37,461 nucleotides of DNA. Source: Clostridia bacterium. GTDB lineage: Bacteria > Bacillota > Clostridia > Christensenellales > CAG-314. Below the pieces are notes generated by a model. The model made no database searches. It saw only the letters and a program-made list of their open reading frames with translations, and was not told where the DNA came from. Below are positions 1 through 37,043 of this stretch, in pieces; position 1 is the stretch's first letter, and every line of letters starts with the position of its first letter. Location of the stretch: the NCBI GenBank assembly GCA_017500855.1, contig JAFVYC010000040.1:1-37461 (forward strand), given 5' to 3'. Both the position numbers and the translations under genes were made by a program.

Positions 1-159
1 GAGGGCAAAAAGATTCGGTACACGCCCGAACTTTTTGGAGTTTTGTTGAAAGCACCGACCAGGCGTTTGGTGGAATTTGCAAGCAGGGCAACAGGCACAA
101 TAATGACGGACCGTCGGGGACGCCGGTCCCTACGATTTTTTTTCGAGAACACGGATTAA
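1..159 (+). CDS. Possible 3' end of a gene cut by the window edge
   Basis: A frame is open from the first base to a TAA at 157-159 and would give 52 residues (begins EGKKIRYTPELFG). I do not recognise the family. The first 33 or so residues look protein-like, with mixed charge and hydrophobicity. The last 19 are encoded by a REP-like hairpin (108-143), so the original gene may have ended earlier and been extended by repeat insertion. A second frame (+3) is also open across this stretch, which weakens the call. Treat as tentative. Confidence 0.3.
   Translation, partial: EGKKIRYTPELFGVLLKAPTRRLVEFASRATGTIMTDRRGRRSLRFFFENTD
108..143 (+). terminator. REP-like hairpin with T-run
   Basis: Bases 108-113 (GGACCG) pair with 124-129 (CGGTCC) and a run of eight T follows at 136-143. 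It has the form of a rho-independent terminator. The core also resembles the GTAGGGAC...GTCC type of short palindromic repeat that is dispersed in many gut Clostridia, which is from general knowledge and not tested here. Confidence 0.55.
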
Positions 160-2716: not shown

Positions 2717-3619
2717 TTAGTTGTTGGGGAGCGTTGCAAGCAGTTGCAACACAAGGTCTTTGTCGAAGTTTGGCAGGTAGTCTTGCGTGGCAGATTGCAA
2801 GTCTTGCAAAAAGCCGTTTTGAAGCCCAACGTTGGAAAAATAGTCGACAATGCTGTTGTACTCGTGGCGGAAAAGTTTGCGATTGAGTTGGGGCAAAAGT
2901 TCGTCCGTCCGTGCGGGGAAGTACTGCGACATCAGGCTGACGATTGTTTGTTTGCCAAACTGCGCAATCCAATCCAACACAAGTTTGCTGTCTTCCACAA
3001 AGCCGGGAAGCACCAAATGGCGAATGATGAGCCCGTTTGTGATGTAGCCCTCGGCATTGAAAATGTCGTTGGGTTGCTGACGGCGCATTTCCTCGATTGC
3101 CTTGGTTGCCACTTGGAAATAGTTTGGGCAATTGGCAAGTTGCTTGGAAACTGTGGGGCTTGCAAACTTCAAATCCGGCAAGTACACGTCCACAAGGCCG
3201 TGCAACTGCTTCAAGGCTTCCACCTTTTCGTAGCTACCTGTGTTGTAGACCACGGGTATGGAAAGTTGGTGTTTTACCAATTGCAAAGCGCTGGCAATTT
3301 TGTTGGAAAAGTGCGTTGGAGTTACCAAATTTACGTTGGCAACGCCCATGTCTTGCAGGCGCAAAAACACGTCGGCAAGTTGCCTTGTGGTCACTTCCAC
3401 GCCCTTGGGAACGACACTTATTTCGTGGTTTTGGCAAAATCGGCATTGAAGGTTGCAACCTGCAAAAAACACCGTTCCACTGCCCTTTGTGCCGGAAACA
3501 CAAGGCTCTTCCCACATGTGTGGCGCAACACGAGAAAGCACCACGTTGTTTGTTTTACAAACTCCGTTTTGCGTGCTTCTGTTGACGTTGCAATTGCGTG
3601 GGCAAAGAGTACAGTTCAT
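2717..3619 (-). CDS. Radical SAM protein, PflA-like (COG1313 type)
   Basis: A 300-residue protein. A cysteine-rich N-terminus (MNCTLCPRNCNVNR) is followed by the radical SAM cluster motif GCNLQCRFCQNHEIS, a CX3CX2C that binds a 4Fe-4S cluster and S-adenosylmethionine. This arrangement matches the 'putative pyruvate formate-lyase activating enzyme' group (COG1313), which is distinct from true PflA. Its substrate is unknown; the extra N-terminal cysteines may hold a further cluster. The downstream gap before the transporter pair is 88 bp and includes a copy of the ACGGGGTGGGG repeat box. A strong promoter lies just upstream. Confidence 0.85.
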   Translation of the reverse strand: MNCTLCPRNCNVNRSTQNGVCKTNNVVLSRVAPHMWEEPCVSGTKGSGTVFFAGCNLQCRFCQNHEISVVPKGVEVTTRQLADVFLRLQDMGVANVNLVTPTHFSNKIASALQLVKHQLSIPVVYNTGSYEKVEALKQLHGLVDVYLPDLKFASPTVSKQLANCPNYFQVATKAIEEMRRQQPNDIFNAEGYITNGLIIRHLVLPGFVEDSKLVLDWIAQFGKQTIVSLMSQYFPARTDELLPQLNRKLFRHEYNSIVDYFSNVGLQNGFLQDLQSATQDYLPNFDKDLVLQLLATLPNN

Positions 3620-33154: not shown

Positions 33155-33262
33155 TTGCAACAAGTCAATAGGAACAAAAAACGAAGCAAATGCTTCGTTC
33201 CTTGATGAAATGATTTTGGTTGGTTGTTGAAGTGACACTGCATTTTTGTTGACGTGCCGTGA
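33155..33262. repeat. Intergenic repeat copy A (short form)
   Basis: Starts TTGCAACAAGTCAATAGG, contains the hairpin ACGAAGCA (33181-33188) / TGCTTCGT (33191-33198), then GATGAAATGATTTTGGTTGG and ends GACGTGCCGTGAA. On the minus strand the hairpin is followed by TTTTTTG, so it terminates the 33280-33801 gene. It lacks the left 75 bp found in copies B and C. Confidence 0.85.
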
Positions 33263-33279
33263 ATTTGAAACTTGTGTTG

Positions 33280-33801
33280 CTATTCCAACGGAAAACGCTT
33301 GTTAAACTCTTCGATGAAAGTTGCCCAATCTTTTTTGAGATGTTCCGCAGAAATACAAACCTCATCAAAGCCCATTTTTTTGTTGGTTTTTATAAAAAAC
33401 AATTGTAGCTTGTTCATTTTGTCTAGATATTGCGCTGGATTTTTTAGCTTGATGACAAAAAAGAAGCCTTTCAAGTACACTTTTTCAATATCCGACCATT
33501 CAATTCTTCCAAAGGAAATTGCAGAAGAATTATCCAAAAAATACTCGTCGCAAATCTCAATTAGCGGTTCATTAGAAAAGAGTTTTTTGAAGAAGTAGCC
33601 AGCACTCAATGTGGTAAATATAGCGCAAACAAGGCACAACACCTTGACAAACCAATACACAATTTCGTTGTCAAGAAAACCTCCCTCGTAGGATGGAATT
33701 TGTCGTACGTCAAAAATAAAAAAGCAAACAAATGCAACTGTTACGGCAATTAGGACGAGAACAAACAGCGCACCTTGCCCTTTGTTAAACTTAATTTTCA
33801 T
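33280..33801 (-). CDS. Two-helix membrane protein, possibly STM3941-like
   Basis: 173 residues. A basic start (MKIKFNKGQG), one helix (ALFVLVLIAVTVAFVCFFIF), a short loop, a second helix (VYWFVKVLCLVCAIFTTLSAGYFF), then a cytoplasmic beta-rich domain (LIEICDEYFLDNSSAISFGRIEWSDIEKVYLKGFFFVIKL) and a helical end. The PH-like pattern 'I.WSDIEKVYLKG' is typical of STM3941-family proteins of unknown function; I make this match from memory. The RBS is a run of nine G (33810-33818), so expression may be phase-variable. It is the only gene in its repeat-bounded module. Confidence 0.75.
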   Translation of the reverse strand: MKIKFNKGQGALFVLVLIAVTVAFVCFFIFDVRQIPSYEGGFLDNEIVYWFVKVLCLVCAIFTTLSAGYFFKKLFSNEPLIEICDEYFLDNSSAISFGRIEWSDIEKVYLKGFFFVIKLKNPAQYLDKMNKLQLFFIKTNKKMGFDEVCISAEHLKKDWATFIEEFNKRFPLE

Positions 33802-33809
33802 AGATGCAT

Positions 33810-33818
33810 CCCCCCCCC
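33810..33818 (-). promoter_or_regulatory. G9 tract acting as ribosome binding site
   Basis: On the minus strand G9, then ATGCATCT, then the ATG at 33801. No other purine-rich site is present, so the tract must pair with the anti-Shine-Dalgarno. The tract is in the RBS window at eight bases. A change in tract length would shift spacing. Confidence 0.6.
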
Positions 33819-33845
33819 TAAAAAAAATGCAGTTGATTTCTTTAT

Positions 33846-33874
33846 ATTATATCTTAGAGAAACAAATGTGTCAA
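33846..33874 (-). promoter_or_regulatory. Promoter of the 173-aa membrane protein gene
   Basis: Minus strand TTGACA (33874-33869), 17-bp spacer, TATAAT (33851-33846). Perfect consensus. Confidence 0.88.
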
Positions 33875-33918
33875 TAAAATATGTGATGAAACCATGCCGT
33901 TATAAGCATTGTACGTTT

Positions 33919-34097
33919 CCTACGTGGCAAGTTGTCAACAGCCAAACTTTCGTTTCGCAACCTTGGGCAAGTGGCAACAGCACGAGCTTGCAACAAGTCA
34001 ATAGGAACAAAAAACGAAGCAAATGCTTCGTTCCTTGATGAAATGATTTTGGTTGGTTGTTGAAGTGACACTACAATTTTTGTTGACGTGCCGTGAA
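33919..34097. repeat. Intergenic repeat copy B (long form)
   Basis: About 180 bp, nearly identical to copy C at 36782-36962. The left part has CTACGTGGCAAGTTGTCAAC and TTTCGTTTCGCAACCTTGGG. The right part equals copy A, with the hairpin ACGAAGCA (34014-34021) / TGCTTCGT (34024-34031) and T-run on the minus strand. It also carries TTGACA (minus, 33938-33933), but without a good -10 at 17 bp in this copy. It terminates the 409-aa gene. Bases 34098-34214 hold nothing else. Confidence 0.88.
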
Positions 34098-34214
34098 TAC
34101 ATTTTTTCAAATTCAACTAGAAGTAACTAAAATCGTTCTTTGCACAATGAAATCCGAGTTTGTTGTGATGAAATCTTGTGACCAATCGTCCTTGTTTTGC
34201 ACAATCAGGCGCTT

Positions 34215-35444
34215 TTACAAATAGTACTCTTTGTCCACTCGCTTGTAGGTGCGGATGCAATAGGTGTAGACTCCGTCAACTTTTTTGTTGATGGTTTGTT
34301 CCCCTGCAAACTGGTACACGCCCATGAAAACGTACCTTCCATCGGCTTGCTTTGCAAACGTAACACGGGGTGCATCGTCCTTTTCGTGGTCCACAAACCA
34401 CACTTCGTGGATTGTTTTGCCTACGTCTCGCATTACGTTAGACCAACTGCCACAACTTGTGCCCGTGTAGGTGCTGTGTGGCAACATCCAAACCGAGAAG
34501 CCTTCCCTTGTGGCTTGTGTTGCAAAAAGCAATTGCCTTGTTCCGAAAAGCCACTTGTGTTCCCACTTGAACTCCAAGGTGCGACAACATTGCCCGTAGA
34601 TTTCTTCTGCCACGTTACCGTAGATTCTGCCCCCTATAAGTTCTTCGAAATTGTCGGCAGTCCAAGCGGAAATAATTCGTGGTGTGGGGTAGGCATCCCC
34701 TTTTCCTTTGAGAAGCGCCAGCGCTTCTGCCAAAATTTTCATATACGAAAGCTCATTCGGAATTACGACACCATCTGTGTCTATTTCTGGTGGGGCAGGT
34801 GGCATGGGTGCGTAGTATACTTGCCGTGGGGCTAGCAGTTTGTCAATTTTCGCTTGAAAGTCCTTGTCTACAAAACTCAAATAACCTCGTAGCGCAATCA
34901 AAATGTCGTAGCCATTTTTGCCATCGTCCAACACAAGATAGGTTTTGTCGCTAAATTGCTTCACTGTGAACACCTGTCCACTGCTGTTCACAACTTGTTT
35001 GCCAACAAAGTCCAATTGCCCCAACTCGTTTTTTATTTCCGCATCGCCCATTTTTTGCAATAGCGGTTGAAATTTAGCCTTTTTCTCAATGGGCAACACA
35101 ACGATGGTACCATCGTAAATCTTGTCTATTAACTTTTCTTCAAAGTTAGAGTACAACCCCTCTTCACGCATTTTAAGTACAAAAGATTTGCATTTCCCCA
35201 CTTGAGCCTTTAGTTCTTCGGAACAATACCACCTTTGCATAGCAATGGTACACAAGTCTGCCACATAGTCGCACAACACCCAAAAACCAACAGACGACGA
35301 TGGGTTTACAAGCTGTTCATAGGAAAGGCAGTCTCTCGAAAACCTTTCCTTTTTTATTTGCAGAATGTTTTTCAATTCTAAGTTGATTTCTCCTACAAGC
35401 TTTTTCAACGGCATTTTGTGCGCATCGTTTTTGATTCTTATCAT
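34215..35444 (-). CDS. Unknown 409-aa protein in the repeat-bounded module
   Basis: 409 residues from the ATG at 35444. I do not recognise it. The first 130 residues are helical and charged (MPLKKLVGEINLELKNILQIKKERFS...FEEKLIDKIYDG). A middle segment, about residues 145-205, looks beta-rich (GKQVVNSSGQVFTVKQFSDKTYLVLDDG). Then comes a Pro-rich linker (YYAPMPPAPPEIDTDG) and a C-terminal domain with Trp-rich strands (TLEFKWEHKWLFGTRQLLF) and an end like RVTFAKQADGRYVFMGVYQF. The last part resembles small-molecule or nucleic-acid recognition folds only loosely. There is no signal peptide. The RBS is a G7 tract. It lies 20 bp after the HTH gene and is probably co-transcribed with it. Confidence 0.72.
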   Translation of the reverse strand: MIRIKNDAHKMPLKKLVGEINLELKNILQIKKERFSRDCLSYEQLVNPSSSVGFWVLCDYVADLCTIAMQRWYCSEELKAQVGKCKSFVLKMREEGLYSNFEEKLIDKIYDGTIVVLPIEKKAKFQPLLQKMGDAEIKNELGQLDFVGKQVVNSSGQVFTVKQFSDKTYLVLDDGKNGYDILIALRGYLSFVDKDFQAKIDKLLAPRQVYYAPMPPAPPEIDTDGVVIPNELSYMKILAEALALLKGKGDAYPTPRIISAWTADNFEELIGGRIYGNVAEEIYGQCCRTLEFKWEHKWLFGTRQLLFATQATREGFSVWMLPHSTYTGTSCGSWSNVMRDVGKTIHEVWFVDHEKDDAPRVTFAKQADGRYVFMGVYQFAGEQTINKKVDGVYTYCIRTYKRVDKEYYL

Positions 35445-35453
35445 TTGTACTTG

Positions 35454-35460
35454 CCCCCCC
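35454..35460 (-). promoter_or_regulatory. G7 tract acting as ribosome binding site
   Basis: Minus strand AAGGGGGGG then CAAGTACAA then the ATG at 35444. It is the only possible Shine-Dalgarno for the 409-aa gene and is one of three such tracts nearby. Confidence 0.55.
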
Positions 35461-35464
35461 TTCG

Positions 35465-35809
35465 TTATCTTTTCAAAAAACCGCCCAAGCAACTTTGCAA
35501 TTTGCCGCAAAGTTCCGTTTTGTTTACCTGCTCAACATCCTGCGCTTGCTCAATTGCTTGCAACACAAAGTCCACTTCCTGCATGGAAAAAACTTTGTTG
35601 TTCATGTAGAATCCCTTGCTTGTTTTTACAATTGGGTAGCCCACGCTTTGCAACGCCTTGATGTTGCGCCCAATGGTTTTTCTGTCGCAAGGAAACACGT
35701 CGGAAATATACTGCAAAATTTTGCTTTGCGTGATGGGATGGTGGCTGTCGGTGTGCGCCTCCAAAATTTTCAGCACCAACACAATCAAGAACTTTTTTGA
35801 TGTTTTCAT
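35465..35809 (-). CDS. HTH regulator resembling a WYL-less DeoR/YafY protein
   Basis: 114 residues. The winged-helix pattern KKFLIVLVLKILEAHTDSHHPITQSKILQYISDVFPCDRKTIGRNIKALQSVGYPIVKTSKGFYM is that of the HTH_11 domain of WYL-family regulators, with the DRKTIGRNIKAL recognition helix. The remaining 40 residues (MQEVDFVLQAIEQAQ) match only the start of the linker, and the WYL sensor domain is absent. The RBS AGGAGGG is ideal and a TATAAT lies at 35831-35826, so it is expressed independently of the lrp unit. It probably controls its own operon including the 409-aa gene. Confidence 0.78.
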   Translation of the reverse strand: MKTSKKFLIVLVLKILEAHTDSHHPITQSKILQYISDVFPCDRKTIGRNIKALQSVGYPIVKTSKGFYMNNKVFSMQEVDFVLQAIEQAQDVEQVNKTELCGKLQSCLGGFLKR

Positions 35810-35886
35810 TTTGCCCTCCTACTATATTATACCATTTTTGTTGTACCAAAAATAGCCCACGAAAAATTTTTGAAAAAAATACCAAA

Positions 35887-36264
35887 CTATTCTTCCGTGC
35901 AGTTAAGTTGCAAAAGATCAACGAAAAATTGCTTTTTTTGTTGTTCGGTCAACCATCCGTAGCCAAATGCCAAAATGCGTGTTTTTATTTCCACTTCCGT
36001 CTTTTTGCCAAGGTTGCGAATTTTCAACAGTTCATCGCTGGCAATCAAATCGATTGTTTGCCCAACGGTGGTCACTCCTGCCCTTTTCAAAGAGTTGAAG
36101 GCTCGAACGGAGTAGTCCAACTCTTCAATGCTTGTGTCGCACGCTTTGCTTCCAAAACCAATTTGTACCTTGATGTTTTTGCCAAAAACCGAGTGCAACG
36201 TTTGCACCACTCCAACTTGATTGGCAGTTTGCACAAGAATTTCGGCAGATTGTTTATACTTCAT
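35887..36264 (-). CDS. Free-standing RNA polymerase alpha-CTD-like protein
   Basis: 125 residues from the ATG at 36264. Residues 45-102 (SIEELDYSVRAFNSLKRAGVTTVG...LLKIRNLGKKTEVEIKTRI) are a clear match to the alpha-subunit C-terminal domain. The DNA-contact positions of E. coli alpha (Arg265, Asn268, Lys298) are kept here as Arg54, Asn57 and the GKK Lys at 87; Cys269 is Ser58. The N-terminal 40 residues (MKYKQSAEILVQTANQVGVVQTLHSVFGKNIKVQIGFG) are not alpha-NTD and may be a dimerisation or partner-binding region. It starts 13 bp after lrp with only a G9 tract as RBS. It could bind UP-element DNA or activators in place of alpha. Confidence 0.8.
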   Translation of the reverse strand: MKYKQSAEILVQTANQVGVVQTLHSVFGKNIKVQIGFGSKACDTSIEELDYSVRAFNSLKRAGVTTVGQTIDLIASDELLKIRNLGKKTEVEIKTRILAFGYGWLTEQQKKQFFVDLLQLNCTEE

Positions 36265-36267
36265 TTT

Positions 36268-36276
36268 CCCCCCCCC
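36268..36276 (-). promoter_or_regulatory. G9 tract acting as ribosome binding site
   Basis: The minus strand reads the lrp stop TAG, T, G9, AAA, then the ATG of the alpha-CTD gene. The whole gap between the two genes is this tract, so its length sets the translation of the second gene. Confidence 0.6.
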
Positions 36277-36277
36277 A

Positions 36278-36724
36278 CTAGACTTTGTCGATAATTGGAC
36301 GCTTGACAACACCTGTGACAGTGCTTGCACGCACGGCCTTGACGTTGTCTACTACGTTGCAAATTTGTTGCAACAAGCCCTTCATTGTGTTGACATCCGG
36401 CGCTTGGCAAATGGCAAACAACTTTGTTTTGCTTGTTGTTTGAATGACGTTGGAGACCAACGGCGAATTGCAAAGTTGTTGCATGCAAGCATTGTAGCTT
36501 TCGGCATCCATTTCCACTTCCACCAAAAAGGAAATTGCGCCACATGCGCTGTTGTTCAAAACCACAGTGTAGCCTGCAATCACACCACTTTGTTGCATTG
36601 CTTGCACCCTGTTTTTGACTGCTGTGCGGGACAAGCCCACCTGCTCGGCAATGTCGGTGAAGGACGTTCGTCCGTTTTGCAAAAGCAATTGCAAGATTTT
36701 GTTGTCAATTTTGTCTAGATTCAT
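36278..36724 (-). CDS. Lrp/AsnC family transcriptional regulator
   Basis: 148 residues from the ATG at 36724 (AAAGGGGAAAG upstream). A longer in-frame version to 36859 would read through repeat C and is not used. N-terminal HTH: LDKIDNKILQLLLQNGRTSFTDIAEQVGLSRTAVKNRVQAMQQSGVI, then the RAM/AsnC effector domain (AISFLVEVEMDAESYNACMQQLCNSPLVSNVIQTTSKTKLFAICQAPDVNTM). These proteins bind amino acids and form octamers that wrap DNA. It is transcribed from a perfect promoter whose -35 lies in repeat C and is followed by the alpha-CTD gene. Confidence 0.9.
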   Translation of the reverse strand: MNLDKIDNKILQLLLQNGRTSFTDIAEQVGLSRTAVKNRVQAMQQSGVIAGYTVVLNNSACGAISFLVEVEMDAESYNACMQQLCNSPLVSNVIQTTSKTKLFAICQAPDVNTMKGLLQQICNVVDNVKAVRASTVTGVVKRPIIDKV

Positions 36725-36772: not shown

Positions 36773-36801
36773 ATTATAAAGCCTACGTGGCAAGTTGTCA
36801 A
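36773..36801 (-). promoter_or_regulatory. Promoter of the lrp-alphaCTD unit, partly inside repeat C
   Basis: Minus strand TTGACA (36801-36796), exactly 17 bp, TATAAT (36778-36773). The -35 and spacer are within the repeat (from 36782) and the -10 sits at its edge, so the repeat supplies most of a working promoter. Confidence 0.88.
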
Positions 36802-36962
36802 CAGCCAAACTTTCGTTTCGCAACCTTGGGCAAGTGGCAACAGTACGTGCTTGCAACAAATCAATGTAGAAACAAGGAACGAAGCAAATGCTTCGTTCCT
36901 TGATGAAATGATTTTGGTTGGTTGTTTAAGTGAAACTACAATTTTTGTTGACGTGACTTGAA
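36782..36962. repeat. Intergenic repeat copy C (long form)
   Basis: About 180 bp matching copy B. The hairpin is longer here, GGAACGAAGCA (36876-36886) / TGCTTCGTTCC (36889-36899), but the T-run that follows in copies A and B is broken. Shared end ATTTTTGTTGACGTG(C/A)C. With copy B it brackets the 34215-36724 gene block as direct repeats in the same orientation. Confidence 0.88.
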
Positions 36963-37043
36963 ACTGAAATTTTTGTTGCTAACATATTGGTGTTTGCTAG
37001 TGTGATACCTACTTATTTATCCGGTTAATGTTTCACGCTTTCT

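Follow-up and report, generated by a model that had tools for sequence, protein, structure and literature searches.

The window analyzed here, a stretch of 37,461 nt, contains only three G or C homopolymers of at least 7 nt, and all three occupy ribosome-binding-site positions. The plus strand reads C9, C7, and C9 at these places, so the G runs are on the minus strand, where an ATG lies 3-9 nt downstream of each of them. The first G9 (33810..33818) is separated by 8 nt from the ATG at 33801 (G9-ATGCATCT-ATG) of gene 1 (33280..33801), which encodes a 173-aa membrane protein of the STM3941 family (NF041635, 78 bits for a cut-off of 40). The G7 (35454..35460, in the context GAAGGGGGGG) stands 9 nt before the ATG at 35444 (G7-CAAGTACAA-ATG) of gene 2 (34215..35444), coding for a 409-aa protein with no assigned function. 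The second G9 (36268..36276) is 3 nt away from the ATG at 36264 (G9-AAA-ATG) of gene 3 (35887..36264), a 125-aa orphan that carries the alpha-CTD domain of RNA polymerase (PF03118, E = 5.6e-16). Each tract is a candidate Shine-Dalgarno (SD) site, and tracts and genes are all on the minus strand. The initial annotation had placed the three tracts directly before these starts and had noticed no comparable C or G tract in the rest of the window, and we recover the same picture on both counts.

The block is bounded by an interspersed repeat, with one copy at 33919..34116 (plus strand; its minus-strand reading carries TTGACA) and further copies at 36782-36981 and, partially, at 33155-33282. Upstream of gene 2, on the same strand, is a 114-aa ORF (35465..35809) with a weak match to HTH_11, below the Pfam cut-off, and a normal SD (AGGAGGG); the G7 tract begins 4 nt past its TAA. 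Upstream of gene 3, the minus strand encodes an Lrp/AsnC-type regulator of 148 aa (36278..36724), and the G9 begins 1 nt past its TAG. Gene 1 is preceded by a promoter-like site on the minus strand (33846..33874), with TTGACA, a 17-nt spacer free of any tract, and TATAAT. Since gene 1 has this site of its own, a shared operon of the three genes is not established. The protein of gene 2 has 6 matches among about 5.8 billion proteins searched, one of them 96% identical, and its AlphaFold model is poor (pLDDT 51.8) and inadequate for a fold search. The search of genome contigs for orthologues of gene 3 found none; in congeners, the matches were weak and fell in frames of 266-350 aa, the size of RpoA, with none in genome G020. 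The three genes had been read as one small accessory system, an idea based on their proximity only; we found no hint of the three proteins working together.

The window tracts are not promoter spacers of the fetA/porA type, because no -35/-10 pair is found at the right distance. Frameshift switching is ruled out because the tracts precede the ATGs, outside the reading frames, and for genes 2 and 3 also lie past an upstream stop codon. Mechanically, longer frames from upstream GTG or TTG starts do exist over the window tracts.

A run of at least five Gs would need a single G-U wobble to pair with CCUCC and could thus be a strong SD. With the consensus anti-SD, presumed to apply here (CCUCC in the 16S tail), the window tracts are complementary to this sequence at a suitable spacing from their ATGs. 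The computed duplexes range from -10.5 to -11.8 kcal/mol (-10.6 for gene 1), with best aligned spacings of 7, 8, and 4 nt for genes 1, 2, and 3. Twelve of the 15 other ATG-started ORFs in the comparison, from which 4 of 22 rows were excluded (one GTG start, three with wrong coordinates), are weaker than -10.5 kcal/mol (range -5.6 to -13.9). In terms of computed pairing, the tracts thus appear comparable to the stronger normal sites. That the tracts replace SD sites, with normal sites at other genes, is supported, and the absence of another purine-rich stretch near the three starts is a fair description, except that the tract itself is SD-competent. Some normal window sites are G-rich too, e.g., aagggggtg, which precedes the ORF whose start is at 2029.

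The modelled pairing levels off once a run reaches about 6-7 Gs. One-base slips therefore have next to no effect on the modelled rate of genes 1 and 2, whose translation is predicted to hardly change. A graded change with each slip would be expected only when the run is near the ATG, as in gene 3. For this gene, a simple rate model, which excludes mRNA folding and uses assumed spacing terms, gives 0.42, 0.74, 1.00, and 1.25 of the native rate for G7, G8, G9, and G10. Hence, of the three genes, the alpha-CTD-like one is alone in having a graded response in the model. The earlier proposal of on/off control at all three genes, through the strength or spacing of the ribosome-binding site, finds no support here, and neither does a strict on/off switch at the three window genes.

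G runs are not particular to this block. The genome (1,516,768 nt) contains 22 G/C runs of at least 7 nt, 19 of which are outside the block, although none of these 19 was found at a ribosome-binding site. The counts of runs of 7, 8, 9, and 10 nt (3, 6, 10, and 3) follow a non-geometric distribution with a peak at 9, as compared with 59, 14, 3, and 0.7 expected from independent bases at the window's GC. Judged by eye, 4 of the 19 runs of at least 8 nt in this genome lie between a -35 and a -10 element. The claim that the window tracts cluster beyond chance was borne out: the probability of any three of the 22 runs falling within 2,466 nt is 0.012, and that of at least 3 of the 22 falling inside a 7-nt window before a start is about 6e-5 (1,500 genes assumed). 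Such clustering of slippage-prone runs at three adjacent genes, one of which is length-sensitive in the model, would fit an on/off phase variation of a three-gene accessory system via the strength or spacing of the ribosome-binding site. However, genes 1 and 2 are insensitive to one-base slips in the model, G runs are found genome-wide, and nothing indicates joint action of the three proteins, which makes this explanation very unlikely.

Tracts in promoters are common in the genus. The pattern for G9-10 tracts in -35/-10 spacers had 157 raw matches, spread over 20 of the 25 genomes and reaching 17 in a single genome, whereas the backward control matched in 0 of 25. Five genomes lack any promoter match; in a tree of Fmt, with 5 of the 25 rows left out, three zero-count genomes cluster with weak support. 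Among the matches listed, the spacer measures 16-19 nt in 98 of 127 distinct promoter strings and the tract abuts the -10 element in 93 of the 127. The commonest layout is a spacer of 9 + n nt, and AC precedes the tract in 42 of the 49 promoters having a 9-nt lead. Tract lengths range from 7 to 18 and, in 81 of the 96 abutting tracts, show no correlation with the rest of the spacer (r = 0.06), indicating that length changes are uncompensated. Since the run would fill the end of the spacer in these promoters, every G would shift the spacer length by one. In the order sample, the pattern was present in 109 of the 396 genomes and in none of the other 287, with no control match in the table, while a sample of the phylum hardly rises above background (matches in 43 of 398 genomes, counting the window genome, versus 30 with control matches).

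An alternative is that the tract is a fixed promoter or leader element bound by a protein, rather than a mutable sequence. The AC before the tract and the retention of the tract of an aldolase promoter in three relatives would fit this idea, but lengths of 7 to 18 without compensation in the spacer do not, nor does the occurrence of runs before ATGs without the AC context, and we give it scarcely any weight. Some sequencing chemistry is known to give poly-G artefacts, e.g., two-colour poly-G calls. Yet, the runs are short, have unique flanks, and keep a fixed -35/-10 placement in 20 of 25 genomes with no match in the backward control, and the aldolase tract recurs in the records of three relatives; a sequencing or assembly artefact is therefore exceedingly improbable.

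Runs at ribosome-binding sites, like those of the window, form a second class. In congeners, an ORF of at least 80 aa follows 26 of the 48 non-promoter tracts that have an ATG nearby, versus 1 of the 16 promoter-like ones (Fisher P = 0.0009; this genus sample was chosen partly by eye). Within the 23 members of the genus that the order sample includes, a stricter SD pattern gave 24 raw matches versus 0 in the control; outside the genus, it gave 32 raw matches in 24 genomes versus 13 control matches in 9 genomes. With a loose pattern, the genus gave 139 raw matches versus 47 backward, so the control is substantial. Predicted lipoprotein genes are enriched in both the promoter class (10 of 23, P = 1e-7) and the SD class (6 of 26, P = 0.001) relative to 9 of 252 background ORFs, a liberal background that accepts an ATG anywhere within the first 100 codons, excludes tract-driven genes, and includes some mutual orthologues. 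The stricter first background was 2 of 221, with starts called less kindly and tract-driven genes possibly included. As for contingency loci, the tract population exceeds the background and is tied to surface genes. These results support the view that the window tracts belong to a genus-wide population of poly-G tracts which, with its uncompensated lengths and its excess at lipoprotein genes, resembles contingency loci.

Poly-G tracts also precede housekeeping genes, namely fmt and, in promoters, aldolase. A G8 is found before fmt in 1 of the 25 species, where 16 of the 24 others carry a GAGG/GGAG-type site (by eye). Loss of Fmt is expected to be costly to the cell, and tracts before housekeeping genes are odd for an on/off switch. 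The replacement at fmt, the saturation of modelled pairing at 6-7 Gs, and the context of gene 2 (GAAGGGGGGG), one change away from AAGGAGG, are all compatible with homopolymeric SDs that do not switch, having arisen from GGAGG by A-to-G change and slippage, and being strong but otherwise neutral. Nevertheless, a length peak at 9 exceeds the needs of an SD, runs of the same kind are found in promoter spacers, in which an SD would have no role, and a neutral origin sits poorly with the enrichment of the SD class in lipoprotein genes. We regard this alternative as rather unlikely.

During replication, a run of 8-10 Gs would be expected to lose or gain Gs. MutS and MutL score above the family cut-off in 23 of the 25 genomes, including the window genome, so loss of mismatch repair is not supported as a cause, and the presence of these genes should slow slippage. 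A G18 promoter tract does occur in genome G019, where neither protein was found, but this is anecdotal and to be set beside the G18 of genome G014, which has both. Two candidate proofs of slippage were discarded. The difference between G7 and G8 in a paralogue family of genome G401 tracks the subfamily and is thus no proof of fast slippage; the G10/G9 promoter pair of genome G001 has only ~60 nt of common sequence.

Phase variation by simple repeats is best known in pathogens: Neisseria, Helicobacter, and Campylobacter. In Neisseria, fetA has a poly-C between -35 and -10 whose length alters expression (PMC5320596), a layout like that of the promoter class described here, and porA has a promoter poly-G (PMC3639595). 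The present class differs in being found in likely uncultured Clostridia, with at most 17 raw matches per genome, tracts mostly abutting the -10, and many lipoprotein targets; the three window tracts are outside promoters. The espR gene of M. tuberculosis also has a G run upstream, a G7 in its 5'UTR whose length alters translation (PMC11898584), but that run starts 144 bp before the start codon, and folding of the leader is the mechanism proposed for it, whereas the present runs occupy the SD position itself. In Bifidobacterium breve, another gut commensal with a G tract, slippage at a pilus locus has been quantified within the population, with enrichment in vivo (PMC9187656); that tract is intragenic, whereas ours precede the start codon. 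A genome-wide set is that of Helicobacter canadensis, with promoter and coding classes of poly-G and a range of lengths in reads; we found no ribosome-binding-site class there, the word "ribosome" occurring 0 times in the main text (PMC2823697). Our literature searches, which did not cover bioRxiv as such, listed no paper describing a poly-G set of this kind for Clostridia or for SD positions.

The G runs are real, and they are part of a contingency-like poly-G system that seems to be unreported so far. The placement, lengths, and recurrence of the runs, their enrichment at lipoprotein genes, and the one replacement before fmt are observations, whereas SD function, slippage, and an effect on expression are inferred. 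It is probable that the three runs serve their genes as SD sites and are members of a population of 7-10-nt runs of G that extends across the genome and the genus, with slippage likely tuning translation here and switching promoters elsewhere. More tentatively, several families in one order of uncultured Clostridia may have a poly-G contingency system in which slippage switches up to about 20 promoters in each genome, many of them for surface lipoproteins, together with G runs that, mainly in one genus, replace the SD as a translational rheostat, including that of an orphan alpha-CTD protein that could pass the slip on to other genes. Poly-G as an SD would be a simple and testable rheostat of translation, and archived metagenomic reads could already quantify such slippage. 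If true, many uncultured Clostridia would diversify their surface through slippage.

The initial annotation had placed homopolymeric G tracts where three neighboring genes would carry their Shine-Dalgarno (SD) sites. A script run over the whole window confirmed G9, G7, and G9 before these genes and found exactly these three C or G runs of at least 7 nt, as had been claimed. All lie on the minus strand: gene 1, encoding a 173-aa protein, is preceded by G9-ATGCATCT-ATG; gene 2 (409 aa) by G7-CAAGTACAA-ATG, whose tract starts 4 nt past the upstream ORF's stop codon; and gene 3 (125 aa) by G9-AAA-ATG, with the tract beginning 1 nt after such a stop codon. Read directly from the sequence, gene 1 also has a promoter-like site of its own, TTGACA-17-TATAAT. 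An interspersed repeat was found at the borders of the block, in line with its description as repeat-bounded. The three tracts are real, and they are unlikely to be the product of chance. Gene 1 encodes a membrane protein of the STM3941 family (NF041635). Gene 2 had no family match above the cut-off, six matching proteins, and a poor predicted structure. Gene 3 encodes an orphan alpha-CTD-domain protein matching 45 proteins, one of them 99% identical; no orthologue was found in 24 congeners, where matches were weak and in frames of RpoA size, one genome having none.

Across this genome, on either strand, we counted 3, 6, 10, and 3 G runs of 7, 8, 9, and 10 nt, whereas independent bases at the window's GC content would give 59, 14, 3, and 0.7. 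Hence, runs of 7 are rare and those of 9 to 10 over-represented. Among the 19 runs of at least 8 nt, four were placed by eye in promoter spacers (poly-G at loci L005, L019, and L062, poly-C at L017), two are in the window, one is in a prepilin-like ORF, and the other 12 lie elsewhere or were left unclassified. Neither of the remaining two runs of 7 occupies an RBS position. The window is thus the one place in this genome where the SD class was found. The prepilin-like run, a G9 (L015, contig C27:11386-11394) within the frame of a protein of at least 611 aa, is possibly a frameshift-type tract. Two C runs directly follow stop codons: a C10 after a large ORF (L022, C31:69364-69373) and a C7 after an mnmE-like ORF (L288, C29:58845-58851).

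The promoter class was searched with the pattern TTGACN-(0..12)-G7-(0..12)-TATNNT, which matched 20 of the 25 genus genomes, with 157 raw matches in all, and had no match when reversed as a control. Among the 127 distinct strings in the matches listed, 98 have a spacer of 16-19 nt (18 nt in 46, 19 nt in 28), 112 carry G9 or G10, and in 93 the tract abuts the -10 element. By a slightly different rule, 96 tracts abut it; 49 of these have a 9-nt lead, and the lead does not compensate for tract length (r = 0.06, n = 81). Poly-C counterparts are rare: 5 of the 25 genomes hold 7 matches between them, with one control match. In the order sample the pattern occurs in 109 of 396 genomes and is absent from 287, with control columns at 0 throughout as read by eye; in family f32, 21 of 32 genomes match, with 183 raw matches between them. 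In the phylum sample it is near background: 43 of 398 genomes match, this one included, against 30 with control matches, the latter counted by eye. One genome, G019, has a G18 promoter tract (C4:8164-8200); it is 97% complete, and neither MutS nor MutL was found in it.

For the SD class, we searched for G8-(3..10)-ATG and found it in 21 of the 25 genomes of the genus. The raw matches number 139 and those of the backward control 47 (summed by eye); many of the matches are tails of -10 elements. The loci examined, a sample partly selected by eye that leaves out the window's own three tracts, hold 64 distinct tracts followed at 1-13 nt by an ATG; 16 are promoter-like by regular expression and 48 are not. 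An ORF of at least 80 aa is opened by 26 of the 48 but by only 1 of the 16 (Fisher P 0.0009); taking every ATG in these loci, also those within coding sequence, the figure is 24%. Tightening the pattern (G8, not T, ..ATGAAR) left matches in 34 of the 396 genomes of the order sample. The genus accounts for 24 raw matches, spread over 10 of its 23 genomes there, and for no control match; beyond the genus, 24 genomes hold 32 raw matches and 9 hold 13 control matches (all by eye). The longest SD-class run seen, a G18, lies 6 nt upstream of an ATG that starts a likely secreted protein (L113/L240, genome G014).

Lipoproteins, called with a simple lipobox rule, make up 10 of 23 promoter-class genes (P 1e-7) and 6 of 26 SD-class genes (P 0.001), compared with 9 of 252 ORFs in a liberally counted background; an alternative background, 2 of 221, is a less fair comparison. 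Exceptions include class II fructose-bisphosphate aldolase, with poly-G spacer promoters of G9, G9, and G8 in three relatives (L123, L124, and L125, upstream of position 3001) and one about 150 nt upstream in a fourth (L126). The L126 aldolase, from a MAG recorded as Corallococcus sp. (NALB_7823_15), shares 83% identity with a congener's enzyme, and the record name looks wrong. In genome G401, eight paralogues of a likely secreted-protein family (L245-L252) each follow a tract promoter that is nearly the same in all copies and carries G7 or G8.

The duplexes of the window tracts with the anti-SD core, taken as the consensus sequence, reach -10.6, -11.8, and -10.5 kcal/mol for genes 1, 2, and 3, and 12 of 15 other ATG-started ORFs scored are weaker than -10.5 kcal/mol. 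The G runs likely act as SD. The initial annotation had further proposed that tract length could change translation through RBS strength or spacing. We modeled rates as a sum over registers with assumed spacing penalties, mRNA folding being computed but kept outside the rate. For gene 1, predicted output is flat between G7 and G14; for gene 2 it declines slowly between G5 and G14; and for gene 3 it climbs from 0.17 at G6 to 1.00 at G9 and 1.39 at G11. The model therefore predicts tuning, of a graded kind, at gene 3 alone among the three. In the gene 1 leader (33802-33834, minus strand), TGCAT and a T run can also fold on the G run and ATGCA (-7.4 kcal/mol), a pairing that could mask the SD. 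We infer slippage of the tracts and its effect.

Published homopolymer systems include promoter tracts controlling fetA (PMC5320596) and porA (PMC3639595), a G7 upstream of espR that alters its translation, with leader folding proposed as the route (PMC11898584), intragenic G tracts switching bifidobacterial pili (PMC9187656), a genome-wide poly-G set in H. canadensis (PMC2823697), and poly-A/T tracts within coding genes (Orsi et al., PMC2831843). Our literature search found no description of a poly-G system in Clostridia or of poly-G as the SD itself.

The gene fmt, whose product was found in 25 of 25 genus genomes, has the leader G8-CGCA-ATG in one species (G021). By eye, a GAGG-, GGAG-, or GGAGG-type site precedes the same start in 16 of the 24 other genomes and is weak or not clear in eight (G001, G013, G015, G016, G018, G022, G023, and G024). 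This difference from the relatives supports the G run as SD. The three tracts of the window belong to a wide poly-G system, and the fmt leader shows that such a run can arise at a housekeeping gene.
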